Assembly: GCF_030490285.1 (NCBI RefSeq)
Contig: NZ_CP129884.1
Location: 3,534,001-3,598,000 of the forward strand
DNA: 64,000 nt
Direction of reading: 5' to 3'
Source of the DNA: Methylomonas montana
GTDB taxonomy: Bacteria > Pseudomonadota > Gammaproteobacteria > Methylococcales > Methylomonadaceae
Under the pieces are notes generated by a model. The model was not told the origin of the DNA. It ran no database searches and saw only the letters and a program-made list of their open reading frames with translations. Shown here one piece after another: positions 9,191 through 23,158 of this stretch. The position numbers and the translations under genes were made by a program. Positions within the stretch are counted from its first letter, which is position 1; every line of letters begins with the position of its first letter.

Positions 9191-11215
9191 TCAAAACGGA
9201 ATAAACACCATGGCAATCACATCGTTGCTATAGGCGTCCTCAACCTTATATTCCCGATATCCTTTGGATACCGCCCCACCCAATACGTAATTCTTGCCTT
9301 GGTATTGCACAACTTCGGAACTGCGTTGGCCGGTTTTCAGCTTAAAGAACGACTCGTCCAAACCCAGCGTATCACCTATCTTAAGCTTCGAATGATTGGC
9401 AACGCCGATAATGGTTTTATTTCGTTCGACAAACACCGCGAAGCAGCCTGCCAAGATATTGCCTTGCTTATCGCGCGGTAACACATCGTTCAACATCGAT
9501 TGAAATTGCGGCTCGCTGTCGAACACGATGCCTATACCACCCAATATTTGTCTCGGGTCATGCAAATCGGTGATCGCGGCATTGTAAATATAGGTATGCC
9601 GACCCTGGTACAGCGGCGTTTTCGCAAACGCCGAGACGCTATAACGCTGCGAGCTGCCATTTTTTAAGGCCTCGGACGCGCCACCCAGTGCATCGACCTG
9701 CATGCCGACCAACATTGACTGCTTGGGATCGGATACCGCCAGAATCCGGCCGCTGCGGTCGTAGACATAGAGGTTGGTGTAAACCGTGTATAGCGCATTG
9801 ATATACTGCAAAATCTCGGTGATTTGCCGGCTGGCGGAAAAAGACAGATCGGCACTCGCTAAACAGCGTCTGAAGGCTGAGGTCAGCGCCCACCAACGGC
9901 AATCGTTAGCACGCTCGTATAAATTACGGTCCATGATATCGACCGCCAACGAGGCTAAAAATCCGGCATTGTTCAAATGCGAGGACATTACGGTCACTTC
10001 CTGCAAGCAGTTAACCGAGGCAGCAAAAATACCGGCAATATCACTGCCGATTTGTTTGATCGCCTCCAGCACCGGCATGAACTCGGCAGCTTTTTTCCGG
10101 GCCGAGGCGATTTGGCCGTTCAGCACCAGCAAACCCAAATCGGTATTAATATCCGCCGAAGCCTTGCGGATGTCGCGCAACTCCTTAGGAAAAGTACTGG
10201 CCTGATCGATAATGTCAGCGTAATTATTTTTCTGCCCCGCCGAATCATCCTGGCTAAATGCCTTATCCAGCGCGGTCATCATCACCCCACGCCAACCCAG
10301 ACCATAAAAGCCCTGATAACCGGCGGTAGCGCGGGTATTGATGATGTAATCTTGGCGCCGATAGGAAGCGATCCGCACTCGCTCCTCGCCTTTAAAACTG
10401 GTATTCAGCGGCAGCAGTCGTTCGTCACTGCTGGCGATCACGCGCCCGTCCGCGTCAGTCACGGCTATGGTTCCAGTATCACCCGGCATCAACAGCCCAG
10501 CGAAAATGCCCTTCATCTCGTCATCGAATCGAAAGCACAGGCATAAAACCCCCAACAACTGCGAACTCTTGTCATCGGTACTGGTGATCTTGCAGGAATA
10601 AATCAACGAACGCAGCCGATTATCTTGTAAGTCCGAATGCCTAAACGTTTCCAGATAATCTTGACTGGTCGCCAGGGTTTCCGCCAACAGCGGATCGCTG
10701 GAAAAACGTATCGGATTGGTCTGGTCCAAATGAGCCTTTACCTGGCCTTGAGTATCGAAAACGATGATCTCATCATACACACTGTATTTTCTGACATATT
10801 CTCGCAGCCGATTTTCGATGAACTGCTCCTGGTCGGCACTGGGCATGTCTAACGCCAGAAATGCTCTTATATCCTCGTCAGTCGCCAGAAAACCGACATC
10901 CGCGGTACGCTCGAACAAATTACGAATCAGCAGATCGATGGCGACTTGGGCTTTCGACGAATTATCCAGCACCAACTTCTGCACATTTTCAATCAGCAGA
11001 TTACGGGTCAGTTGTTTCTGAAGCTCACCGAACTTATTCTGGGTGCGATGCATATCATCCAGAATGGTCGTCGCCACGTTATGGCTGTTGATTTTACCGA
11101 TCAGGGCGATCTTGCCCCACCAATCGTTCAACGAGGCCAGTTTGCTTTCAAAGCTTTTTACCACGGGCATCGCCGACAACAGCTTAGCCGAATGAGTTTC
11201 CAAGAGTGTATTCAT
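9191..11215 (-). CDS. Soluble double-Cache sensor protein
   Basis: A 674-residue protein; the ATG at 11215 is chosen over an open-frame extension to 11518 because AAAGGA lies six bases upstream and the extension is not family-like. It contains two copies of an extracellular-sensor-like Cache architecture. The first is near residues 80-320: helix with RNLFERTADVGFLA, then YDEIIVFDTQGQVKAHLD and TGTIAVTDADGRVIASSD. The second lies near 430-670: RNLYERANDCRWWAL, YTNLYVYDRSGRILAVSDP and VFVERNKTIIGVA. Neither copy has a transmembrane helix or signal peptide, so sensing would be cytoplasmic. There is no HAMP, kinase, GGDEF or MCP signalling domain, so output must pass through partners. A sigma-54-like promoter precedes it, and it diverges from the Anbu gene. 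Confidence 0.7.
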   Translation of the reverse strand: MNTLLETHSAKLLSAMPVVKSFESKLASLNDWWGKIALIGKINSHNVATTILDDMHRTQNKFGELQKQLTRNLLIENVQKLVLDNSSKAQVAIDLLIRNLFERTADVGFLATDEDIRAFLALDMPSADQEQFIENRLREYVRKYSVYDEIIVFDTQGQVKAHLDQTNPIRFSSDPLLAETLATSQDYLETFRHSDLQDNRLRSLIYSCKITSTDDKSSQLLGVLCLCFRFDDEMKGIFAGLLMPGDTGTIAVTDADGRVIASSDERLLPLNTSFKGEERVRIASYRRQDYIINTRATAGYQGFYGLGWRGVMMTALDKAFSQDDSAGQKNNYADIIDQASTFPKELRDIRKASADINTDLGLLVLNGQIASARKKAAEFMPVLEAIKQIGSDIAGIFAASVNCLQEVTVMSSHLNNAGFLASLAVDIMDRNLYERANDCRWWALTSAFRRCLASADLSFSASRQITEILQYINALYTVYTNLYVYDRSGRILAVSDPKQSMLVGMQVDALGGASEALKNGSSQRYSVSAFAKTPLYQGRHTYIYNAAITDLHDPRQILGGIGIVFDSEPQFQSMLNDVLPRDKQGNILAGCFAVFVERNKTIIGVANHSKLKIGDTLGLDESFFKLKTGQRSSEVVQYQGKNYVLGGAVSKGYREYKVEDAYSNDVIAMVFIPF

Positions 11216-11319
11216 AATATCCTTTGCTGACCGGTTGCAAATAACGATGTGTCGGGATAGCGACAAGACTGCTTGAGCCGAAGCCTGCGCAGCGCATTGC
11301 TTAAACTCGCGCATCTGAA

Positions 11320-11336
11320 AGCAGTATCCGTACCAA
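11320..11336 (-). promoter_or_regulatory. Sigma-54-type promoter for the double-Cache gene
   Basis: On the minus strand the sequence reads TTGGTACGGATACTGCT. GG and GC are separated by exactly ten bases, matching the -24/-12 consensus TTGGCACG-N4-TTGCW at most positions. The predicted start of transcription is about 90 bases before the ATG at 11215. Confidence 0.5.
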
Positions 11337-11420
11337 ACCGTTAAATCCGAGACCTTTCGATCTAGGCGGGACGTATTTGCGAGCGAACGAGATACCGATC
11401 GCACCAAATCTTGACGTGCT

Positions 11421-11437
11421 CGCACCGGCATGGAGCA
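11421..11437. promoter_or_regulatory. NtrC-like 17-bp dyad
   Basis: CGCACCGGCATGGAGCA matches the NtrC enhancer pattern TGCAC-N5-TGGTGCA at ten of twelve fixed positions. It lies between the two divergent sigma-54-like promoters of the Cache gene and the Anbu gene, about 85 bp from the former and 105 bp from the latter. Confidence 0.4.
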
Positions 11438-11540
11438 GATAAAACCGAGTTCCAAGTCAGCTGAAATTGACCCGGCTCCCGTCGCGATAATACCGACCAA
11501 TACGCCGCCTGCTGACACCGGCAGTTAATCAAGACCGCCC

Positions 11541-11558
11541 CTTGGCCTTTATCCCGCA
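11541..11558 (+). promoter_or_regulatory. Sigma-54-type promoter for anbu
   Basis: CTTGGCCTTTATCCCGCA has GG at 11544-11545 and GC at 11556-11557, the required ten-base gap. The -24 half is good and the -12 half is only fair (CCGCA for TTGCA). Transcription would begin about 33 bases before the ATG. Confidence 0.45.
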
Positions 11559-11601
11559 TCTTTAGTACACTGCCAACAACCCATTTCCAGGCGCAGAGCG
11601 T

Positions 11602-12354
11602 ATGACTTACTGTATCGCTGTCTCTCTAAAGGACGGACTGGTATTAACCTCGGATTCCAGAACCAATGCCGGCATCGACAATGTCAGCATCTACGGCAAA
11701 ATGCATGCTTTTACCACGGCGGCCGACCGTAAGATCGTCCTACTCAGCGCCGGCAACTTGGCCACCACCCAGGCCGTGATCGACCAGTTGAAACGCGACA
11801 TCAAGGAAGAAACCGAAGTCAATCTGGATAGCGTACGTTACTTGTCGGAAGCGGCGGACTATATCGGCAAAATCAGCGTCGAAAAACAACGCCGCCATGT
11901 CGACGCCGGTCAAAGCAGTTTCAACCCTTCCGCCACTTTTATCCTGGCCGGCCAAATCGGCCAAGAGCCTCATGGCGCCTATTTGGTTTATCCGGAAGGC
12001 AACTGCATCACCACCTCCCGGCAAACCCCCTACCTGCAAATCGGCGAAAACAAATACGGCAAACCGGTATTGGATCGCTTCATCAAAATCGACACCTCGC
12101 TACAGGAAGCCGGCCGCTGCTGTTTGATCTCGATGGACTCGACCATGCGCAGCAACGCCAGCGTCGGTGCGCCGGTGGAACTGTTGATTTACCACAGGGA
12201 CACCCTGGCGCTGGATGAGTATTATTGTTTTCAGGAAGACAACGAGTATTTGATTCAACTGCGGCGGATGTGGCACGAGAAACTAAAAGAAGCGTTTGCA
12301 ACCTTACCGCAGTTCAGTAAGAATGATTCAAGGCCGTTACCGGGCAGTATATAA
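11602..12354 (+). CDS. anbu: Anbu proteasome-like peptidase
   Basis: A 250-residue Ntn-hydrolase of the Anbu (bacterial proteasome homologue, COG3484) family. Removal of Met1 exposes a threonine nucleophile (MTYCIAV). The catalytic Asp (TSDSRT) and Lys (YGKMHAF) fall at mature positions 17 and 32, as in proteasomal beta subunits. The length fits the family. Anbu assembles into an open-helical or ring-like particle, but no unfoldase partner is established. It is typically linked to circularly permuted ATP-grasp, alpha-E and transglutaminase genes, all of which follow here. A sigma-54-like promoter precedes it. The true peptide substrate is unknown. Confidence 0.9.
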   Translation: MTYCIAVSLKDGLVLTSDSRTNAGIDNVSIYGKMHAFTTAADRKIVLLSAGNLATTQAVIDQLKRDIKEETEVNLDSVRYLSEAADYIGKISVEKQRRHVDAGQSSFNPSATFILAGQIGQEPHGAYLVYPEGNCITTSRQTPYLQIGENKYGKPVLDRFIKIDTSLQEAGRCCLISMDSTMRSNASVGAPVELLIYHRDTLALDEYYCFQEDNEYLIQLRRMWHEKLKEAFATLPQFSKNDSRPLPGSI

Positions 12355-12417
12355 ATCAGTGTAAAAGGCGTTGGCCATCCCGATTCAAGCGGCAGCCACC
12401 CATACAAAACACGATCT

Positions 12418-12458
12418 GCCAGTCCTTGCACCCCATCTTTAGAGGCGCAAGGACTGGC
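12418..12458. terminator. Convergent-gene stem-loop, probable terminator
   Basis: A perfect 12-bp inverted repeat, GCCAGTCCTTGC and GCAAGGACTGGC, with a 17-base loop lies in the 159-bp gap between the convergent anbu and alpha-E genes. There is no T-run, so termination would be atypical or the element may stabilise 3' ends. Confidence 0.5.
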
Positions 12459-12513
12459 GCACCGCATCGGGAAAACCCATGATACTTACCCGTGCCGACT
12501 CTCGGCAGCCACG

Positions 12514-13452
12514 TCAAGCTTCATGGTTATTAAAAAACCACGTCGCGGCTATCTGTCGATGCAAATCGTCGAACTGGCTCTGCAAGCCATCCAACACCTG
12601 ATGCAATTGTTGCGGAGAGGCCTGCTGAATATCGATAGCCAACAAATGTTGTTCCAGCTGTTCCAGATGTGGATACAACTCGACAGCATGCGGCAAGCGC
12701 TTGATGCAGTGCGTAATTTCTTCCAGACAATGCAGCACCGCCCTGGGAAAATCCGGATTTTTTAACAGATAATTCAATACATCCTCGCCCTTAATCCGGT
12801 TGCGTACATGTTTGCGGTACATCAGCACCGCGCTCAGCGACTTTAAGACATTAATCCACAACATCGTCTCGTACTCGCGCATCTTGTCGCTACGATTTTC
12901 CGCCAGCAATACGGTGCCGAAATCCATGATCCGGCTGGTCATGTCGGCCCGTTCCAGATTACGACCGATACAGATAAACCGGGCACTGTCGCTAAGACTC
13001 ATCGCTCCGGCCATAAAACCGGTAAAACGCTGGCAACCAGCCATGATTTCCTGCAAAAACAAGGCCCTACCCCTGCGGTTGGACAGGCTATCCAGATTAT
13101 TGTTGGCATACAGATACATCTCGTTGACTTGCTGCCAGGCTTCGTCGGGCATCAGTTCCCTGCTGGTGCGGATATTCTCGCGGGCAAATGACAGCGAAGC
13201 CAGCAAGGAGCCAGGGTTATTCATATCGGCCAGCAAAAAACGGGTTGCATTTTGCTCGCTGGGATTTTTAAAGCGCTGGTAAAACGCCTCTTCCACGCCA
13301 CAAATGTTCAGCAGATTGCGCCAGCCCAGTTCCACCCCATAAGGCAGATCGTAAATCAAATGCATCGTGGCGCTGATCAGGCGGGCAGTGTTTTCGGTGC
13401 GTTCCAGATAACGCGCCATCCAGTACAAACGTTCGGCAGATCGCGATAACAT
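12514..13452 (-). CDS. Alpha-E domain protein (stand-alone)
   Basis: A 312-residue all-helical alpha-E (DUF403, COG2307) protein. The start is taken at ATG 13452, where the sequence opens with the family signature MLSRSAERLYWMARYLERTENTARL. A GGGAG site lies inside the end of the upstream gene, and the longer frame would overlap that gene. A second signature is RNLERADMTSRIMDFG (about residues 150-165). The family is predicted to work with the circularly permuted ATP-grasp ligase encoded one base upstream, probably as a structural or catalytic partner in peptide synthesis. No biochemical function is established. The pair forms a two-gene operon divergent from the fused copy. Confidence 0.88.
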   Translation of the reverse strand: MLSRSAERLYWMARYLERTENTARLISATMHLIYDLPYGVELGWRNLLNICGVEEAFYQRFKNPSEQNATRFLLADMNNPGSLLASLSFARENIRTSRELMPDEAWQQVNEMYLYANNNLDSLSNRRGRALFLQEIMAGCQRFTGFMAGAMSLSDSARFICIGRNLERADMTSRIMDFGTVLLAENRSDKMREYETMLWINVLKSLSAVLMYRKHVRNRIKGEDVLNYLLKNPDFPRAVLHCLEEITHCIKRLPHAVELYPHLEQLEQHLLAIDIQQASPQQLHQVLDGLQSQFDDLHRQIAATWFFNNHEA

Positions 13453-13453
13453 C

Positions 13454-14908
13454 TTATTGCTCCCTATTGATAATCCAAGTGTCTTTACTGCCACCGCCCT
13501 GCGAAGAATTCACCACCAGCGAACCGGCCCGCAGCGCCACGCGGGTCAAGCCGCCGGCGGTGACAAAGCTGTTCTCGCCTTGCAAGATAAAGGGCCGCAA
13601 ATCGATGTGCCGAGGTTCCAGTTTGTCGCCACACAGTGTCGGGCAAGTCGATAAAGCCAAGGTCGGCTGGGCGATGTAATTACGCGGATTATCCTGGATC
13701 AACTTATGAAAATGCCTGATCTCCTTTTGCGTAGCGTGAGGACCGACCAACATACCGTAGCCGCCCGATTCGTTGGCCGGCTTCACCACCAGTTCCGGCA
13801 AATGCGCTAACACATAGGCACATTGCTCTGGGTCGCTACATAGATAAGTCGGTACATTGGGCAGGATGGGTTCTTCGTTTAGATAATACCGAATCATTTC
13901 CGGCACGTAGGCATACACCACTTTGTCATCCGCCACGCCAGCACCTGGCGCATTTGCTAAGGCCACATTGCCGGCCTTCCACGCCCGCATCAAGCCCTTG
14001 ACGCCCAACACCGAGTCCTTATGGAACACTTCCGGGTCGAGAAACAAGTCGTCGATGCGCCGGTAAATCACATCGACTTGCTCCAAGCCCTTGATGGTGC
14101 GCATATAGACGCAATCGTCGTCCTTGACCAGCAAGTCACCGCCTTCCACCAGCTCCGCGCCCATTTGCTGGGCCAAGAAAGCGTGTTCGAAATACGCGGA
14201 GTTGTAGATGCCCGGTGTCAAAACCGCGATTTGCGGCGTGTCGTCAGGCTTGGGCGCCAGTGAAGCCAGCATCTCGAACAATTGGGTCGGGTAATCGTCC
14301 ACCGGCAAAATATTCAGATTTTCCAATAACTCCGGAAATATCCGCTTGGTAATCACCCGGTTTTCGATCATGTAGGACACACCGGACGGCACCCGTAAAT
14401 TGTCCTCCAACACATACAGCTTACCGTCGCCGGCCCGTACCAGATCGCTACCGCAGATATTGGCCCAACTGCCGAACTTAGGTCGCATGCCCAGACATTC
14501 CTGACGGAAATTGCTGGAACTGGCGATCAGTTCGGCCGGCACCAGGCCATCCTTGATAATCTGTTGTTCGTTATAAATATCGTTTATGAAGCAATTCAAG
14601 GCTTTCAGGCGTTGCTTCAGGCCGGTTTCGACGATTTTCCATTCCTGAAAATCGATCAAGCGCGGAATAATGTCGAACGGCCACGCCCGATCGATATTGC
14701 CTTCGTCGCTGTAAACCGTGAAGGTGATGCCCATCTCCATGATCGCCGCTTCCGCCGCCGACAATCGGCCTTTAATGGCTTCCATGCCCAAGGATTGTAG
14801 GTATTGACTCAAACTGGCGCAGGCGTCACGAGACTTGCCGCCCGCTGCTATCATTTCGTCGTAAGCCTTGTCGGCGCTGTACTGCGCCCAAATCGATTGC
14901 GTAGCCAT
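13454..14908 (-). CDS. Circularly permuted type 2 ATP-grasp ligase (canonical copy)
   Basis: A 484-residue COG2308 protein, a circularly permuted ATP-grasp enzyme predicted to ligate amino acids or peptides to carboxylates. Start MATQSIWAQY at 14908 has AAGGA ten bases upstream. Key blocks are intact: LYVLEDNLRVPSGVSYMIENR (metal/ATP acid residues), VDVIYRRIDD, LVVKPANESGGYGMLVGP (nucleotide lysine and flexible loop) and HIDLRPFI. These resemble active members of the family and contrast with the degenerate residues in the fused copy at 15365-17899. It is transcribed away from that copy, behind a very good sigma-54-type promoter. Confidence 0.9.
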   Translation of the reverse strand: MATQSIWAQYSADKAYDEMIAAGGKSRDACASLSQYLQSLGMEAIKGRLSAAEAAIMEMGITFTVYSDEGNIDRAWPFDIIPRLIDFQEWKIVETGLKQRLKALNCFINDIYNEQQIIKDGLVPAELIASSSNFRQECLGMRPKFGSWANICGSDLVRAGDGKLYVLEDNLRVPSGVSYMIENRVITKRIFPELLENLNILPVDDYPTQLFEMLASLAPKPDDTPQIAVLTPGIYNSAYFEHAFLAQQMGAELVEGGDLLVKDDDCVYMRTIKGLEQVDVIYRRIDDLFLDPEVFHKDSVLGVKGLMRAWKAGNVALANAPGAGVADDKVVYAYVPEMIRYYLNEEPILPNVPTYLCSDPEQCAYVLAHLPELVVKPANESGGYGMLVGPHATQKEIRHFHKLIQDNPRNYIAQPTLALSTCPTLCGDKLEPRHIDLRPFILQGENSFVTAGGLTRVALRAGSLVVNSSQGGGSKDTWIINREQ

Positions 14909-14948
14909 ATTGTTTACATCCTTGAGCATTGCTTTTATGGTGCGGATA

Positions 14949-14965
14949 TGCTCGATAATGGTGCG
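14949..14965. promoter_or_regulatory. NtrC-like site 1
   Basis: TGCTCGATAATGGTGCG matches TGCAC-N5-TGGTGCA at ten of twelve fixed positions. It lies between the divergent ATP-grasp operons, 25 bp centre-to-centre from a second site, the tandem arrangement used by NtrC oligomers. Confidence 0.5.
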
Positions 14966-14973
14966 AAAAGTAC

Positions 14974-14990
14974 TGCACCATTTCGAAGCA
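14974..14990. promoter_or_regulatory. NtrC-like site 2
   Basis: TGCACCATTTCGAAGCA keeps the left half-site TGCAC and the GCA of the right half with seven bases between the half-sites, as in the NtrC consensus. It is weaker than site 1. Confidence 0.4.
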
Positions 14991-15019
14991 AGCCGGTTCT
15001 AATGGGTTGATACCCCTAA

Positions 15020-15037
15020 AGCAATAGCAATGCCAAG
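15020..15037 (-). promoter_or_regulatory. Sigma-54-type promoter for the minus-strand ATP-grasp/alpha-E operon
   Basis: The minus strand reads CTTGGCATTGCTATTGCT: TTGGCA and TTGCT with GG and GC ten bases apart. This is the best -24/-12 match in the window. The predicted start is about 100 bases before the ATG at 14908. The NtrC-like sites would then fall within the 5' leader, an unusual but workable position for an enhancer. Confidence 0.6.
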
Positions 15038-15194
15038 TTTCAAGGACGCTACCCAAACAATCGGATAAATAGGCCCATCCGCTGGTTTGATCTGTGCCGA
15101 CCAGCTACTGATCGCTTTGGACATCAGTACCGCTCCAGGCCAATCGCCCTGGACTATTGTCGAAGCCGGGACTCACGAGTTAGTCGCACGCTTC

Positions 15195-15211
15195 ACGGCA
15201 TGGTTTTTGCG
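15195..15211 (+). promoter_or_regulatory. Sigma-54-type promoter for the fused ATP-grasp/alpha-E operon
   Basis: ACGGCATGGTTTTTGCG has GG at 15197-15198 and GC at 15209-15210 with the ten-base gap. The NtrC-like pair lies about 230-270 bp upstream of the expected start, a classical enhancer distance. It would leave a 5' leader of about 140 bases. Confidence 0.45.
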
Positions 15212-15364
15212 TTTGCATTTGTCCCATGCAAAGCCCGTTAGCAGCAACCCGATACCTCATTCAAAACATCAACCCCTGCCTGGAATCCGATTCGGCATAA
15301 ACGCCGAATCGCGATCAAGTTTGATAAATTGCGCAATACCCAACAAACCGGCAAACTAAGCCTT

Positions 15365-17899
15365 ATGAAAACGCTAAGTACACCAGAAGCTTTCGCGCCG
15401 GGATATCCCCTCGACCCAGGCATCTACGACGAAATGTTGGACGAGACCGGCCGAGTGCGGCCGCATTGGGCGCATCTGATGCAGGCCTTGCAGCAACTCG
15501 GGCCACGAGAAGTCGGGCTACGCCACCTGGAAGCCCTGAAACTGCTGCGCGAAAACGGCGTCACCTACAACGTCTACGGCGATCCGGACGGCATCAACCG
15601 TCCCTGGCAACTCGACCCGGTACCGCTACTATTGTCCGGCGACGAATGGTTCGATATCGAGGCCGGCTTATTGCAACGCGCCGAACTGTTGAACCTGATC
15701 CTGGCAGACTTATATGGTCCACGCGAGTTGATCAAGAAAAACCTGCTACCGCTGGAACTAATCTATAACCACGGCGGCTTCCTGCGGGTTTGCGATCAAG
15801 TGTTCCTGCCAGGCCAACATCAACTGGTGTTGTACGCCACCGACCTGGCCCGTGGCCCGGACAAAAAAATGTGGGTATTGGGCGACCGCACCCAAGCACC
15901 CTCGGGCGCCGGCTATGCACTGGAAAACCGGATGGCGATGTCGCGCGTCTTGCCCAGTCTGTTCCGCGACACGCATGTCCACCGGCTGGCGCGTTTCTTT
16001 CAATCTCTGCGCGCCGGCCTGAACGCCATCGCCCCCAGCGACGCCGAAATCCCGCGCATCGTAGTGCTAACCCCCGGCCCGCTGAACGAAACCTTCTTTG
16101 AACATGCTTATTTAGCCTCTTATCTAGGTTATCCCTTGGTACAAGGCGACGACCTGACCGTCCGCGACGGCTATGTCTGGCTGAAATCGCTAGTCGGTCT
16201 GCAACGGGTTGACGTGATTGTGCGCCGGGTCGACGACAATTACTGCGACCCCTTGGAATTGCGCGAAGACTCCCGACTGGGCGTCCCCGGCTTGTTGGAC
16301 GTCGCCAGACGCGGCAATGTCGCCATCGCCAATCCGCTGGGCAGCGGCGTGCTGGAAAATCCCGGAATCATGCCCTTCCTGCCTGGGATCGCCAAACACT
16401 TCCTCGGCCAAGCGCTGAAACTGAACTCGATCGCCACCTGGTGGTGCGGCCAGGCCCGCGAACTGAATTATGTGCTGGCCAATTTGGAACGGCTGGTGAT
16501 CAAACCGATCTACCGCAAACCTGGCGAACACTCGGTGTTCGGCCATCAACTCAGCCGGACGCAGTTGGCGACCTGGCGCGAGCGAATCCGCGCCCGACCG
16601 GCCATGTACGTGGGTCAGGAATATGAGAGCTTTTCCACGGTACCGTCGTTGATTGCCTGCGGCTACGAACCACGCCCCACGCTGCTGCGTTGTTTCATGG
16701 TGGCGCGCGCCGACGGCTATGCCTTGCTGCCGGGCGGCTTGACCCGTAGCGCCCCGCAATACGGCGACATGTTGATCACCAGCCAAATGGGCAGCATCAG
16801 CAAGGACACCTGGGTGATCGCCACCGAGCCGCAACACGCTGCGATCCAGGCCAAACAGAGCAACAGCGGAGTGGCTAACCACGGCAACGCTCTGCCCAGC
16901 CGGGCAGCGGACAATATTTTCTGGGTGGGCCGCAATGCCGAACGCGCGGAAGGCGGCGTGCGCCTGCTGCGCGCCACCATCAAAAAACTGTTCATCAATC
17001 CCGACTGCGATAATCCGGATTACCAACACAGCCTTCAGACTCTGCTGTGTTGCGTGACCAGTATGACCGGCACCTACCCCGGATTTTTTGCCGAGGATAA
17101 CGATAGTCTGCTACAAGCACCCGAAACCGAACTGCTGGCGGTGGTGACGGCCGAAAACCGTATTGGCAGTTTGGCCAACACCGTGGCCAGAATGGCACAA
17201 TCGGGTTATGCGGTGCGCGATTTGTGGTCGTCCGACACCTGGCGGGTGATAGACGAGATCGAGGAACAAATCACCGAAGCCCGGCGGCTAGGCAAAACCG
17301 GTTTATGGTCGATGCAGGAACAGATGGACCAGTTGATTACCACCTTATCGGCGTTCAGCGGCTTGGTGATGGAAAGCATGACGCGCGGTAACGGCTGGCT
17401 GTTTCTGGACATCGGCCGGCGGCTGGAGCGCGGCTTGCAGCTAGTTTCGGTATTAAGAACCGCATTTGCGATGGCGCAAAGCGAAGCGGCGGAAACCCGC
17501 TTGATCGAATCCTTATTGGACACCAGCGATAATCTGATCTGCTACCGCCAGCATTACCGCAGTAATCTGGAACTGGGATCGTTTCTGGAATTATTGTTGA
17601 TGGACCCGAATAACCCGCGCTCGCTGGCCTATCAAATCAACCGACTGCAGGAGCATGTCGGCAAACTGCCGCGCGAAACCGACAAGCGCCGGATCAGCCC
17701 AGCGGAGCGGCTATTGTTGGAGGCCAGCTGTATTCTGAATATCGCCAATATCGAAGACTTGCTGAGCGTATCCGAAGCCGGCATCCGCGAAACGCTCGAT
17801 CAACATCTCGGCAAAATCTACGCGCTGTTGGCCGCGCTGTCCGATACCCTGACGTCTACCTATTTTCGGCACGGGGACGCGCCGCAATCGCTGTCTTAA
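15365..17899 (+). CDS. Fused circularly permuted ATP-grasp (degenerate) and alpha-E protein
   Basis: An 844-residue fusion. The first 475 residues follow the same circularly permuted ATP-grasp fold as the minus-strand gene. Residues about 490-840 are an alpha-E domain opening with LPSRAADNIFWVGRNAERAEG. ATP-grasp landmarks are altered: LGDRTQAPSG replaces LEDNLRVPSG, KPIYRKPGEHSVFG replaces KPANESGGYG, and RPTLLRCF replaces RHIDLRPF. The active-site acids and glycine loop are therefore lost or moved, and this half may be non-catalytic or use a different mechanism. The start at ATG 15365 fits the family; an earlier TTG exists and the ribosome-binding site is weak. It sits nine bases upstream of the transglutaminase gene. 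Confidence 0.88.
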   Translation: MKTLSTPEAFAPGYPLDPGIYDEMLDETGRVRPHWAHLMQALQQLGPREVGLRHLEALKLLRENGVTYNVYGDPDGINRPWQLDPVPLLLSGDEWFDIEAGLLQRAELLNLILADLYGPRELIKKNLLPLELIYNHGGFLRVCDQVFLPGQHQLVLYATDLARGPDKKMWVLGDRTQAPSGAGYALENRMAMSRVLPSLFRDTHVHRLARFFQSLRAGLNAIAPSDAEIPRIVVLTPGPLNETFFEHAYLASYLGYPLVQGDDLTVRDGYVWLKSLVGLQRVDVIVRRVDDNYCDPLELREDSRLGVPGLLDVARRGNVAIANPLGSGVLENPGIMPFLPGIAKHFLGQALKLNSIATWWCGQARELNYVLANLERLVIKPIYRKPGEHSVFGHQLSRTQLATWRERIRARPAMYVGQEYESFSTVPSLIACGYEPRPTLLRCFMVARADGYALLPGGLTRSAPQYGDMLITSQMGSISKDTWVIATEPQHAAIQAKQSNSGVANHGNALPSRAADNIFWVGRNAERAEGGVRLLRATIKKLFINPDCDNPDYQHSLQTLLCCVTSMTGTYPGFFAEDNDSLLQAPETELLAVVTAENRIGSLANTVARMAQSGYAVRDLWSSDTWRVIDEIEEQITEARRLGKTGLWSMQEQMDQLITTLSAFSGLVMESMTRGNGWLFLDIGRRLERGLQLVSVLRTAFAMAQSEAAETRLIESLLDTSDNLICYRQHYRSNLELGSFLELLLMDPNNPRSLAYQINRLQEHVGKLPRETDKRRISPAERLLLEASCILNIANIEDLLSVSEAGIRETLDQHLGKIYALLAALSDTLTSTYFRHGDAPQSLS

Positions 17900-17908
17900 G
17901 GAAGCCCC

Positions 17909-18790
17909 ATGCGTTATCGAGTCACTCATACCACCACATATCGCTATCACCAGCCGGTAGGATTGTCCTATAACGAAGTCCGGATGCAGCCGCGCCCCTG
18001 CCCCAACCAGCAATTGCTAAGTTCGAGCCTGCGCATCGCCCCCCAACCCAGCGATTATCGGACCCGAACCGATTTTTTCGGCAATCAGGTGGTCTGGTTT
18101 TCGATCCGCGAACCGCATCGGGAATTCCTGGTCACCGCGGTGAGCGAAGTGCAGGTGTTTCCGCAGCCGGTGCAGCTGGACTTCAGCCACGGCATGAGTT
18201 GGGAGGCGGTCAAGGAAACGCTGAGGACCGACAGGAGCGAACCTACGCTGGAAGCCAGGCAATACGCACTGGACTCGCCGTTCATCGCCGCCGATGCCGA
18301 TCTGGCCGATTACGCTCAAGCCTCGTTCTCCCCCGGCAAAACACTGATCGAAGCGATACACGACCTGATGCAACGCATCCATCGCGACTTCACCTTCGAC
18401 CCGGAATTCACCAATCTTGCCACGCCTTTGGCCACCGTGCTGGAACACCGGCGCGGGGTCTGTCAGGACTTCGCCCACCTCGCCATCGGCTGCATCCGCT
18501 CGCAAGGCCTGGCAGCTCGCTATGTCAGCGGTTACATCGAAACCTTGCCGCCGCCGGGTAAGAAAAAACTGGTCGGCGCCGACGCCTCGCACGCCTGGTT
18601 CTCAGTGTACTTGCCGGATCTGGGCTGGATGGATTTCGACCCTACCAACAACCAACTGCCCGGCGACCGACATATCATCGTCGCTTGGGGCCGCGACTAT
18701 AGCGACGTGACGCCTTTGAAAGGGGTGATTTTCGGCGGTCAAAACCATGAATTAAAAGTGGCGGTGGAAGTAGCAAATTTGGGAGCATAA
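17909..18790 (+). CDS. Transglutaminase-like cysteine protease
   Basis: A 293-residue COG1305-type protein. It has the N-terminal beta domain usual for this family (MRYRVTHTTTYRYHQPV) and a papain-like core with catalytic Cys in RRGVCQDFAHLAIG (about residue 190), His in DASHAWFSVYLP and Asp in WMDFDPTNN. No signal peptide is present, so it is cytoplasmic. AAGGA precedes the ATG and the gap to the fused ATP-grasp gene is nine bases, so they are co-transcribed. In this gene neighbourhood such enzymes are thought to cleave or transfer the peptides made by the ATP-grasp partners, with Anbu as a second protease. The chemistry is inferred. Confidence 0.9.
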   Translation: MRYRVTHTTTYRYHQPVGLSYNEVRMQPRPCPNQQLLSSSLRIAPQPSDYRTRTDFFGNQVVWFSIREPHREFLVTAVSEVQVFPQPVQLDFSHGMSWEAVKETLRTDRSEPTLEARQYALDSPFIAADADLADYAQASFSPGKTLIEAIHDLMQRIHRDFTFDPEFTNLATPLATVLEHRRGVCQDFAHLAIGCIRSQGLAARYVSGYIETLPPPGKKKLVGADASHAWFSVYLPDLGWMDFDPTNNQLPGDRHIIVAWGRDYSDVTPLKGVIFGGQNHELKVAVEVANLGA

Positions 18791-19018: not shown

Positions 19019-22000
19019 TTGCGACATTTATTGACCCGTGCCGGCGCCAGAATAGTAGGATTGGCCATTGTCTATGCGCTAGTCGCGAAACTGGTGTTGG
19101 CGTTTTTTGCGGCAAATTATTTGGTTTCCGTCATCTGGCCCTCCAGCGGCATCGCGCTGGCAGCTTTGCTCTTGGACGGCAAAAAACTCTGGCCCGGCGT
19201 ATTCCTCGGCGCATTGGCCGGCAATCTATGGGCAGGCAGTTCGGTTGCGCAAGCTTTGCCGATAGCGGGTGGCAATACCCTGGAAGCCTTGGCCGTTTGC
19301 TATTTGCTGGGGACGCTGGCTAGCAAGCTGCAACAGCCGCGCGATTACCTGCGCTGGTTATTTGCAGCGGGGTTAGCTTCCGGTATCGCCGCCATCATCG
19401 GTTCCTCGGCCTTATGGTATTCCGGCGCTATATCGGAACGGCAATGGCCAAGCAACCTGGCCTATTGGTGGATGGGCGATACGCTGGGCATCACCATCGT
19501 GGCGCCGTTGATTCTGATGTGGCGGCAACCTATCAGCTTCGTCTGGAGTCGGCTACAAGCCTGGCACATGGCGATTTATTTGCTTACGGCATTTCTGATA
19601 GGACAAATGGTCTTTTTGCAATGGCCGTTTGATCTTGGCCACTATGGTAAAGCATTTTATATGTTCGCCTTTTTGGTCTACGGCGCGCTGCATTTTGGCT
19701 TGCACGGCACCTTGATTCTGATAGGCATGGTCACGCTGCAAAGTATGTTCAGCGTCATTCTGCAAGTCGGCTATTTTGCAGCCGACAGTGGCGAAACCGG
19801 ATTGATACTGCATTGGTCGTTCCTGTTGATGATGTCCAGCATAGGGATTCCACTGGCGCTGGCCTTTGTGCAACATAAACACGCCGAACAGAACATAAAA
19901 GCCATTAGCGACTTCAATCGGCAAATTCTGCAATCGTTACAGGAAGGCGTGGTAGTCTACGATATTCACGGCCGCTTCAAACTGTGGAATCGCTTTATGG
20001 AAAAGCTCAGCGGCATCGCCGAAGCCGAGTGCTTGGGCAAGTCGCCGCTGCATGTGTTTCCCTGGCTAGCGAAAACCACGCTGCCCCAAGGCATGCAAAA
20101 AGCACTAGCCGGAGAAACCGTCAGTCATGCCCCCTTTATGTCCAGCACAGGCATCTGGATCAGCACAGTGCAAATGCCGTTGCGCGACGAACAGGAACGT
20201 ATCGTCGGCGTGATCGAGCTGATTAACGATGAGTCGCTGCACATTGAATTCGGCAAATCCCTGTCGGCCAGCGAATCGCGCTTCCAAAGCATTCTCGACA
20301 ACACACCCGCGGTCATTTACAGCAAGGACCGGAACGGAACCTATCTGCTGATCAACCGCCAATTCGAAAAGCTGTTCAACATCGACAATGAGACTATCAG
20401 AGGCAAACGCGATACTGATCTGTTTCCGCCAGACCAAGCCCGCGCACTTCGTGAGAACGATTTCCTGGTATTGAATACCGGTCAAGCACGGATATTTGAA
20501 GAACAAGTCTCTCATTGGAACGGCGAAACCCGCATTTATTTGTCGCATAAATTTCCATTACGCAATCCGCAAGGCGAAATTTATGCGGTGTGCGGCATCT
20601 CCTCCGACATCAGCGAACGCAAACAAGCGGAGAAAATGCTGCAAGAAAGCGAGCTGCGCTGGAAGTTTGCGTTGGAAAGCGGCGGCGACGGCGTTTGGGA
20701 CTGGGATCTGGCGACCGGCAAAGCATTTTATTCGCCGCGCTGCATGGAAATCCTGGGTTTGAACGAGCAGGATCGAAACTACAATTACCGCAATTGGCAA
20801 GACACCATACACCCGGAAGATCATGCCCGGATGATGGCCGATTTACAGGCGCATCTGGAAAACCGTAGCGCGCGCTTCCACAACGAACATCGGGTCAGAC
20901 AAGCCAATCAGCAATGGCGCTGGATCCTGACTCGCGGCCTGGTAGTCAGCCGCGATGCGAACGGCAAAGCCCAGCGCATGATCGGCACTCAGACCGATAT
21001 TACCGAACGCAAGCAGTTGGAATGGACCCAACTCGCCAAGATTGTCGATGGCTCGCCGGAAGCAATGTTGCTGGTCGGCGCTAACGGCAACATCAAACTG
21101 GCCAACTCACCTGCCGCGAGGATATTTGGCTATCCGCTTGACGAGTTGATCGGCACCAAAGTCGACAGCCTGGTGCCGCATGCCGCCCGACCCGGCCACG
21201 ACCGGCAACGCGCGCATTTCGTGAGCGATAACAAGGCCAGACCGATGAATGCCAGCCGCGACTTGAAAGCCTTGCGCCGCGACGGCAGCGAATTTCCAGT
21301 GGAGATCAGTCTAACGCCCATCGATATCGATAATCAGCGGGCCATCATCGTCTCGGTGCTGGATGTTAGCGAACGCAAACGGGTTGAACACGAAATGCAG
21401 TTGATGGCGATGATCTATCAGGCCATCGGCGAGGCCGTGATGGTGGCGGATGCGAATAATCGCATCATTGCCATCAATGAGGCATTTACCCGCCTAACCG
21501 GCTACACGGAACTGGACGCGATCGGTCAATCCACCAATCTGCTGAAATCCGGCCGTCATGACCCGGATTTCTATCAACCGATGTGGCACTCGCTGGCGCT
21601 CACCGGGCATTGGCAGGGCGAAATCTGGAACAAACGCAAAAACGGCGAGATTTACCACGAGTGGCTGGTGATCAACACCATTTATGGCAGCAATGGCAGC
21701 GTGGAACGCCGTGTGGGCATGTTCTCGGAAATCACCGAGCAAAAGCAGGTCGAACAAACCATCTGGCGGCAGGCTAACTTTGATCCGCTCACCGACCTGG
21801 CCAATCGGCGCATGTTCCAGGACCGTTTGAGCCAGGAAATCAACAAAGCCCAGCGCGACGGCAACAGCCTGGCGGTGATGCTGCTGGATCTGGATCATTT
21901 TAAGGAAGTCAACGACACCCTGGGCCACGGCATGGGTGACACATTGTTGCAAGAAACCGCCAAACGCATCCTCAGTTGCGTACGCAAGGTGGACACCGTG

Positions 22001-23158
22001 GCCCGCCTGGGCGGCGACGAATTTACCATCATACTAGGCGATCTGGACTCGGGCGTCAGCGCCGACCGAGTAGCGCAGGCGATCTTGCGAAAGCTTGCCG
22101 ATCCGTTCCGCCTAGGCGATGAGCAAGCCTATATCTCGGCCAGCATCGGCATCACACTATATCCACAAGACGCCAAAGAGGCCGAGCAATTGGTCAAAAA
22201 CGCCGACCAAGCCATGTATTCCGCCAAACAACAGGGCCGCAACCGTTACAGTTACTTTACCCTAGAAATGGAACAAGCCGCGCAAAACCGGATGCGCTTG
22301 ACCAACGATTTACGTCAGGCGCTTGCCCAACAGCAATTTCGGGTGGTTTATCAGCCGATCGTCGCGTTGAATAGCGGCCATATCCACAAAGCCGAAGCGC
22401 TGATTCGCTGGCAACATCCCAGCCGCGGCATGATCAGTCCAGTCGAATTCATACCGCTTGCGGAAGAAACCGGTTTGATCGTCGATATCGGCAACTGGGT
22501 ATTTCACACCGCGGCGACGCAGGCAGCCGAATGGCGCGCCAACTACCAAGCGAACTTTAAAATTGCGGTGAATAAATCGCCGGTACAATTCATCCGTAGC
22601 GCTGAAGGTGGCAACGACTGGATCAGTTATCTACAACAACAAGGCATGTCCGGGCAAAGCATCGTCGTTGAAATTACCGAAAGCCTGTTGCTGGACGCGG
22701 ACAGCACCGTGCGTGAACATTTATACGCCTATCGCGACGCCGGTATCCAGGTGGCGATCGACGACTTTGGTACCGGTTATTCCTCGCTATCCTATTTGAA
22801 AAAATTCGATATCGATTATCTGAAGATCGATCAATCCTTTACCCGCAATTTGGCCGCCGGTTCCAGCGACCATGCCTTGTGCGAGGCCATCATCGTGATG
22901 GCGCACAAACTGGGGCTACAAGTAATCGCCGAAGGCATTGAAACCCAACAACAGCTGGATCTGCTGACGGCGGCCGGCTGCGATTATGGTCAAGGCTATT
23001 TGTTCTCCAAACCGCTGCCCGCCGCTGAATTTGTCCTATTGTTCGATACGGAAGCGCAGCCATCGGCACAAACCTCGACAAAACCGGCGGCAAGATCGGC
23101 AACCCGCGCTGATTCCAGCATTTCCAAACTGTTCGCTTCCGACAAATCGGTGGATTGA
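19019..23158 (+). CDS. MASE1-PAS(x5)-GGDEF-EAL cyclic-di-GMP protein
   Basis: A 1379-residue inner-membrane signalling protein. Residues 1-290 form a MASE1 multi-helix sensor (SVIWPSSGIALAALLL, WWMGDTLGIT). Five PAS/PAC units follow (about 300-930), each ending in ERK-type linkers. A GGDEF domain with intact RLGGDEF and an upstream RKVD inhibitory I-site is followed by an EAL domain with EALIRWQHP, NKSPVQF, EITES, DDFGTGYSSL, KIDQSF and EGIE all present. Both synthesis and hydrolysis of cyclic-di-GMP are thus possible. The start is a TTG at 19019 with no strong ribosome-binding site and could be a little off. The 228-bp gap before it has no recognised element. Confidence 0.9.
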   Translation: MRHLLTRAGARIVGLAIVYALVAKLVLAFFAANYLVSVIWPSSGIALAALLLDGKKLWPGVFLGALAGNLWAGSSVAQALPIAGGNTLEALAVCYLLGTLASKLQQPRDYLRWLFAAGLASGIAAIIGSSALWYSGAISERQWPSNLAYWWMGDTLGITIVAPLILMWRQPISFVWSRLQAWHMAIYLLTAFLIGQMVFLQWPFDLGHYGKAFYMFAFLVYGALHFGLHGTLILIGMVTLQSMFSVILQVGYFAADSGETGLILHWSFLLMMSSIGIPLALAFVQHKHAEQNIKAISDFNRQILQSLQEGVVVYDIHGRFKLWNRFMEKLSGIAEAECLGKSPLHVFPWLAKTTLPQGMQKALAGETVSHAPFMSSTGIWISTVQMPLRDEQERIVGVIELINDESLHIEFGKSLSASESRFQSILDNTPAVIYSKDRNGTYLLINRQFEKLFNIDNETIRGKRDTDLFPPDQARALRENDFLVLNTGQARIFEEQVSHWNGETRIYLSHKFPLRNPQGEIYAVCGISSDISERKQAEKMLQESELRWKFALESGGDGVWDWDLATGKAFYSPRCMEILGLNEQDRNYNYRNWQDTIHPEDHARMMADLQAHLENRSARFHNEHRVRQANQQWRWILTRGLVVSRDANGKAQRMIGTQTDITERKQLEWTQLAKIVDGSPEAMLLVGANGNIKLANSPAARIFGYPLDELIGTKVDSLVPHAARPGHDRQRAHFVSDNKARPMNASRDLKALRRDGSEFPVEISLTPIDIDNQRAIIVSVLDVSERKRVEHEMQLMAMIYQAIGEAVMVADANNRIIAINEAFTRLTGYTELDAIGQSTNLLKSGRHDPDFYQPMWHSLALTGHWQGEIWNKRKNGEIYHEWLVINTIYGSNGSVERRVGMFSEITEQKQVEQTIWRQANFDPLTDLANRRMFQDRLSQEINKAQRDGNSLAVMLLDLDHFKEVNDTLGHGMGDTLLQETAKRILSCVRKVDTVARLGGDEFTIILGDLDSGVSADRVAQAILRKLADPFRLGDEQAYISASIGITLYPQDAKEAEQLVKNADQAMYSAKQQGRNRYSYFTLEMEQAAQNRMRLTNDLRQALAQQQFRVVYQPIVALNSGHIHKAEALIRWQHPSRGMISPVEFIPLAEETGLIVDIGNWVFHTAATQAAEWRANYQANFKIAVNKSPVQFIRSAEGGNDWISYLQQQGMSGQSIVVEITESLLLDADSTVREHLYAYRDAGIQVAIDDFGTGYSSLSYLKKFDIDYLKIDQSFTRNLAAGSSDHALCEAIIVMAHKLGLQVIAEGIETQQQLDLLTAAGCDYGQGYLFSKPLPAAEFVLLFDTEAQPSAQTSTKPAARSATRADSSISKLFASDKSVD

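Follow-up and report, generated by a model that had tools for sequence, protein, structure and literature searches.

Predicted NtrC-sigma54 control of three of four transcription units, anbu probably excepted, in an ATP-grasp/alpha-E/transglutaminase block of Methylomonas montana

The stretch of DNA analyzed here (64,000 nucleotides of the 4.63 Mb Methylomonas montana genome, hereafter the window) carries at positions 9191-18790 a block of genes for the proteasome-like protein Anbu, ATP-grasp ligases, alpha-E proteins and a transglutaminase-like protein, next to a gene for a Cache protein. An earlier note had proposed that the four transcription units of this block form a single regulon of the activator NtrC and the sigma factor sigma54. 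Our results narrow this claim to three of the four units: the block probably comprises three sigma54-dependent promoters of the NtrC type and one gene, anbu, outside the regulon. The genes are the following.

9191..11215, minus strand: tandem-Cache protein of 674 amino acids (Pfam dCache_1, 1.1e-15)
11602..12354, plus strand: anbu, proteasome-like Ntn hydrolase (Pfam Proteasome, 1.4e-5; PDB Anbu structures 5loy, 2.8e-68, and 5nyw, 2.3e-60)
12514..13452, minus strand: alpha-E protein (Pfam Alpha-E, 1.3e-79)
13454..14929, minus strand: circularly permuted ATP-grasp ligase (Pfam CP_ATPgrasp_2, 2.2e-166; PDB 3n6x, 5.4e-159)
15365..17899, plus strand: ATP-grasp-alpha-E fusion protein (Pfam CP_ATPgrasp_2, 2.2e-151; Alpha-E, 1.5e-69)
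17909..18790, plus strand: transglutaminase-like protein (Bact_transglu_N, 1.7e-28; Transglut_core, 6.3e-20)

The ligase was assigned to the circularly permuted ATP-grasp family by a CP_ATPgrasp_2 match above the cut-off and by its solved homologue 3n6x. The probable start of the alpha-E gene, judged from the sequence, is the ATG at 13452, in an open reading frame that reaches 13494. The Anbu protein, the sole match of an Anbu search in the host genome, aligns to 5loy from Thr1 onward and retains SDSR and KMH; the Anbu residues named in the available passages of PMC6376114 are Thr1, Asp17 and Lys32/33. The block contains the same families as the canonical ATP-grasp/alpha-E/transglutaminase/Anbu operon (Iyer et al. 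2009, cited by both PMC5666114 and PMC6376114), but it is split, with a fused ATP-grasp-alpha-E gene and a Cache neighbour, and its anbu gene forms a plus-strand unit of its own, convergent with the alpha-E/ATP-grasp unit. The host genome has a single rpoN match (PF04552, 1.5e-68, at C1:510695) and one ntrC match above the family cut-off (738.7 bits for a cut-off of 558.6).

Every sigma54-like pair and dyad quoted by the earlier note was found at its position. Sigma54 sites were scored with a matrix of 16 positions built from a consensus (maximum 19.7), and dyads by the number of matches to 12 consensus letters. The candidate regulatory elements are listed below.

11320..11335, minus strand: sigma54 -24/-12 site of the Cache gene, TGGTACGGATACTGCT, score 13.44
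11421..11437: NtrC-like dyad, 10/12, at the Cache/anbu gap
11542..11571, plus strand: conserved blocks TTGGCC and TTTAGTACACT, the inferred anbu promoter (alignment of 23 loci)
11543..11558, plus strand: sigma54 site claimed for anbu, score 6.65, at chance level and poorly conserved
14949..14965: NtrC-like dyad, 9/12, 60% mean identity in 11 relatives
14974..14990: NtrC-like dyad, 10/12, 73% mean identity in 11 relatives
15020..15035, minus strand: sigma54 site of the ATP-grasp/alpha-E unit, TGGCATTGCTATTGCT, score 13.48
15196..15211, plus strand: sigma54 site of the fusion/transglutaminase unit, CGGCATGGTTTTTGCG, score 12.46

The presence of GG and GC ten bases apart had been put forward as evidence for all four sites. 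Such pairs do begin at 11334(-), 11544(+), 15034(-) and 15197(+), but their density in 400 kb of the host genome is 5.9 per kb per strand, and the two divergent gaps contain seven of them. The spacing alone is therefore uninformative, and it was discarded as a criterion. Whole sites were instead compared with 160 upstream regions sampled from the host genome, of which four attain the 12.46 of the fusion site and 50 attain the 6.65 of the anbu site. This comparison, proposed by the earlier note itself, places the Cache, ATP-grasp and fusion sites above background and leaves the anbu site within it. As a positive control, a P-II gene that precedes an ammonium transporter gene scored 14.6, with dyads of 11/12 and 10/12.

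The NtrC-like dyads noted in both divergent regions are present and enriched: the two gaps, 818 bp in all, hold two dyads of at least 10/12, compared with 10 in 400 kb of the host genome, and also one of 9/12. The dyad at 11421-11437 precedes the Cache -24/-12 site by 86 bp, which is the usual place for an enhancer. The dyad pair at 14949-14990 precedes the fusion site by about 206 bp and lies 30 bp downstream of the ATP-grasp sigma54 site, within the ATP-grasp leader. One enhancer cluster may serve both divergent units, in what would be an unusual arrangement. A single NifA-type TGT-N10-ACA was also seen at 11250-11265, in the Cache leader, for a background of 0.13 per kb.

Conservation was assessed first for the ATP-grasp gene. 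In a genus/order set of 30 ATP-grasp loci, window included, a site of at least 12.8 was found upstream at 29. Alignment of the ATP-grasp/fusion gap of the window with that of 11 relatives gave a mean identity to the window of 91% at 15020-15037 and 81% at 15195-15211, compared with 33% at 15040-15190 and 51% over the whole gap; the stretch 14930-14945 reached 89%. For a class-wide view, 370 genomes were drawn evenly, 120 of which carried a relative. Upstream regions were placed by match coordinates, and 125 of 126 were scored, L299 (105 bp) being dropped; this set was drawn among the matches listed and leaves out the window's own match, one other match (G039), partial matches and some fusion-type matches. 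Sites of at least 12 precede 42 of the 125 genes, compared with 2.15 in shuffles, 9/125 on the antisense strands and 3/94 in far-upstream windows (Fisher 5e-9). A site with a dyad 40-180 bp upstream occurs in 19/125 regions, versus 0.3 in shuffles and 0/94 far-upstream windows. Three carriers lack an rpoN match (one is given as lacking it, two are missing among the matches listed); their scores are -2.6, -1.1 and 3.4.

The host genome also contains a second, unlinked operon (C1:1028555-1035549) encoding an ATP-grasp protein, an alpha-E protein, a 417-amino-acid open reading frame with no match in a Pfam search, and a transglutaminase-DUF2126 protein. It has a sigma54 site scoring 17.3 and a dyad of 11/12, and it turned up in the unselected background sample as one of the four regions reaching 12.46. 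An open reading frame of the GNAT/FeeM-like type (N-acyl amino acid synthase-like) follows it directly (L056:15717-16484, the operon being L056:8555-15549). A further set of named loci, the best 80 of 590, came from an alignment headed by the ATP-grasp protein of this second operon and therefore represents relatives of that copy. Among these loci, 57/80 carry a site of at least 12 (2.5 in shuffles) and 41/80 a dyad of at least 10 (3.2 in shuffles); such a site is a feature that the window block shares with the canonical operon. Taken over the three sets (29/30, 42/125 and 57/80), sites of at least 12 precede 128 of the 235 ATP-grasp genes scored.

Upstream of the fusion gene, all 17 genus loci, window included, show a site of at least 10, and 13 of them one of at least 12. 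A gene for a MASE1-PAS-GGDEF-EAL protein (19019-23158) lies 3' of the transglutaminase gene, and such a gene also adjoins the transglutaminase gene at the related loci L032, L033, L040 and L041; read-through into it from the putatively sigma54-driven fusion/transglutaminase unit is possible.

The Cache protein is itself atypical. Its halves (60-340 and 385-674, about 280 amino acids each) align as repeats (hhalign 99.6%), showing an internal duplication. A typical dCache receptor has its dCache domain anchored in the membrane and joined to an output module. Here the dCache match is above the cut-off, but no membrane helix is predicted, no hydropathy window exceeds 1.6, no output domain is found among the Pfam or NCBIfam matches, and no NCBIfam model matches at 0.001. 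These features would make it a soluble Cache protein with two modules and no output domain of a known kind. We collected 24 Cache loci in the genus, window included, 16 away from anbu and 8 within 2 kb of it. Sites of at least 10 are present at 13/24 (1.45 in shuffles) and dyads of at least 10 at 10/24 (0.0 in shuffles); away from anbu, 12/16 loci have the site and 9/16 have site and dyad in the usual geometry. When anbu upstream regions were examined in turn, a dyad of at least 10 was found at 8/8 loci with Cache within 2 kb (one of them with a Cache-anbu distance of 1.8 kb) and at 0/22 others, window included. The dyad thus tracks the presence of Cache, and the one beside anbu therefore most likely serves the Cache gene. 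The soluble tandem-Cache gene is likely to be a new member of the NtrC-sigma54 regulon; our literature searches, none of which targeted it, turned up no report of a Cache protein as such a target.

Whether this gene acts with the Anbu/ligase system, as its partner or its sensor, is a separate matter. We lean slightly toward its being simply an additional NtrC target at this locus, a view compatible with three NtrC-type promoters in the block. The 16 loci away from anbu, with their 12 sites, point in this direction, as does the finding that, where an ATP-grasp match (in one case weak) was obtained in six further genera of the order, only one of these has Cache; the proximity of Cache and anbu in 8 genomes, window's included, speaks for a closer relation.

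For anbu, conservation gave a different picture. Upstream sites of at least 12 were found at 0/30 genus/order loci (0.8 in shuffles) and at 1/30 loci of a class set (0.6 in shuffles), window included in each, the class set being the window and the 29 best others of 99 genomes with a match. The upstream regions of 23 of 30 loci were aligned, and TTGG-N10-GC is kept in 5 of the 22 relatives in this alignment, or in 6 of 23 rows when the window is counted. TTGG occurs in 19 of the 23 loci and TTAGTANAC in 15. In the window, TTGGCC and TACACT are 18 apart (TTGGCC-N18-TACACT), a spacing that suggests a sigma70-type promoter, although a stricter sigma70 scan (9-of-12) did not list it. The -24/-12 site proposed for anbu was discarded, being at chance level and not conserved. 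The comparison of intergenic regions in relatives thus sustains the ATP-grasp, fusion and Cache sites and not that of anbu, and Anbu is probably outside the NtrC-sigma54 regulon. At eight related loci of the genus (L044-L051), an anbu gene of the window type lies upstream of an ATP-grasp/alpha-E/anbu2/transglutaminase operon, the two Anbu types being about 3.4-5.4 kb apart.

In Pseudomonas putida, the genes PP_2685-PP_2688 encode, in the passages available, a proteasome-like protein, a transglutaminase and two hypothetical proteins. We take PP_2687 and PP_2688 to be the alpha-E and ATP-grasp genes. As in the window, proteasome-like and transglutaminase genes occur together, and in P. putida nitrogen limitation induces them (PMC7801951, PMC5666114, PMC6376114), likely under NtrB/NtrC (PMC7801951); these genes are consecutive, whereas the window units are separate, with anbu probably lacking a sigma54 promoter. 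Fold changes under nitrogen limitation in wild type, relA/spoT and rpoN backgrounds are 12.6, 37.3 and 14.2 for PP_2686, 11.0, 16.6 and 16.0 for PP_2687, and 14.7, 32.8 and 19.6 for PP_2688 (PMC7801951, Table 2). The passages available also describe Anbu as constitutive and present in moderate amounts (PMC5666114).

A direct NtrC-sigma54 regulon of all four units, anbu included, as first envisaged, would account for the rise of Anbu on nitrogen limitation in P. putida (PMC5666114, PMC6376114, PMC7801951), for the GG-N10-GC before anbu with a dyad about 105 bp upstream of it, and for the relatives that retain TTGG-N10-GC. We nevertheless consider it unlikely. The anbu score is reached by 50 of 160 background regions, the upstream sets show no excess of sites, and the dyad is missing at all 22 anbu loci without Cache next door. 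In P. putida, PP_2685 changed 1.12-fold in wild type (4.81-fold in relA/spoT, 1.45-fold in rpoN), compared with 11-15-fold for PP_2686-2688. Finally, anbu lies downstream of ATP-grasp on the same strand at 50/80 named loci, which could explain the enrichment seen at operon level elsewhere.

The link to nitrogen starvation fares better for the other units, and it is published for homologous operons. Burkholderia cenocepacia I35_5080-5083 (DUF404/407, DUF403, transglutaminase-like and large transglutaminase-like) belong to the same families; they are common targets of sigma54 and NtrC, with changes of -6.0 to -9.4 in an ntrC mutant (PMC5491218). The passages available on this operon name no Anbu (PMC5491218), and its gene content is nearer to that of the host's second operon than to the window block. 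In marine metagenomes, these domains correlate with urea-metabolism domains (PMC3597751, in the part available). COG3484 is listed as enriched among predicted sigma54 targets (PMC12316311). Our search of the methanotroph/NtrC literature found no title on this system among the matches listed, which is no proof of absence, and an article about nitrogen starvation in Paraburkholderia phymatum contained none of five terms looked for in it. By comparison with these systems, the regulon proposed here would be real but mostly known, a variant of a known regulon, with the ATP-grasp/alpha-E, fusion/transglutaminase and Cache units as targets by score, geometry and conservation.

About as improbable as a four-unit regulon is that the sigma54 promoters are real and driven by another enhancer-binding protein, e.g., NifA. 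The genome has 15 further matches to the ntrC model (280-399 bits), and the NifA-type sequence at 11250-11265 could be read in this sense; the ATP-grasp/fusion gap contains none, ATP-grasp and Cache genes show an enrichment of NtrC dyads and have site-dyad pairs at the usual distance, and NtrC dependence was measured for the homologous operon of B. cenocepacia (PMC5491218). That all sites are chance matches is very improbable, since, frequent as GG-N10-GC alone may be, finding sites in three of the four units has a nominal P of 6e-5 for a background rate of 2.5%, and these sites are conserved across relatives.

Several observations weigh against NtrC-sigma54 control of the three units. The sigma54 matrix reproduces a consensus and was not fitted, and genus rows are not mutually independent. 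The dyads near the ATP-grasp promoter sit 3' of its -12 element, are imperfect and are conserved less than the adjacent stretch 14930-14945. Two thirds of the class-wide ATP-grasp upstream regions have no site of at least 12. The other P-II gene of the host genome has no sigma54 site, its best score within 500 bp being 4.6. Class-wide, P-II genes were intended as a positive control and reached 12 at 3/27; this control was set aside as uninformative, as the genes matched best, 30 in number, may be other than glnK; 3/30 were skipped at contig ends. The intended negative control, miaA, gave 3/29 of at least 12 (1/30 skipped) versus 0.9 in shuffles, and the antisense strands and far-upstream windows were therefore added as controls. 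Among the eight Cache genes beside anbu, a score of 10 is reached by that of the window alone; those of the remaining seven are 2.8-9.7. Fusion genes outside the genus, class-wide, reach 12 at 0/19 and 10 at 1/19; their sigma54 control therefore looks genus-specific. Lastly, in the available part of PMC7801951, PP_2686-2688 are induced 14-20-fold in the P. putida rpoN mutant, as in wild type, and that RNA sequencing therefore does not show sigma54 dependence. The urea-transport (urt) genes, named as NtrC-induced in the same paper, likewise stayed induced in the rpoN mutant (PMC7801951). The available passages on the homologues thus disagree on rpoN dependence, that of B. cenocepacia being dependent, and the P. 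putida result does not agree with a simple NtrC-sigma54 scheme.

With three NtrC-type promoters and a separate anbu gene, the block is probably controlled as follows. When nitrogen is short, phosphorylated NtrC would occupy the dyad at 11421 and activate Cache transcription through the -24/-12 site, at a distance of 86 bp. The dyad pair at 14949-14990, as a single enhancer cluster, would let it activate both divergent units, namely ATP-grasp/alpha-E, with the dyads in its leader, and fusion/transglutaminase, with the dyads about 206 bp upstream. Anbu would be expressed from its own promoter, predicted not to depend on sigma54, and its level would stay steadier while ligases and transglutaminase rise in starvation. 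As to the role of the system, we tentatively suggest a starvation-induced synthesis or remodelling of amide (peptide) bonds by the ligases, with cutting by the transglutaminase-like protein and Anbu. It is conceivable, if rather doubtful, that the genus uncoupled Anbu from the starvation switch while keeping the ligases and transglutaminase under it, shifting the balance of synthesis to cutting, and that the soluble duplicated Cache protein serves this starvation response as a sensor in the cytoplasm.

For the Anbu/ATP-grasp/alpha-E/transglutaminase system, the literature seen names no substrate; the link to starvation indicates the condition under which to examine the system. The sites before 128 of 235 ATP-grasp genes would connect these ligases with nitrogen starvation across many lineages. 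The Cache gene provides a cheap new candidate sensor, and genomes in which Anbu lies outside the switch would make it possible to separate the role of Anbu from that of the ligases.

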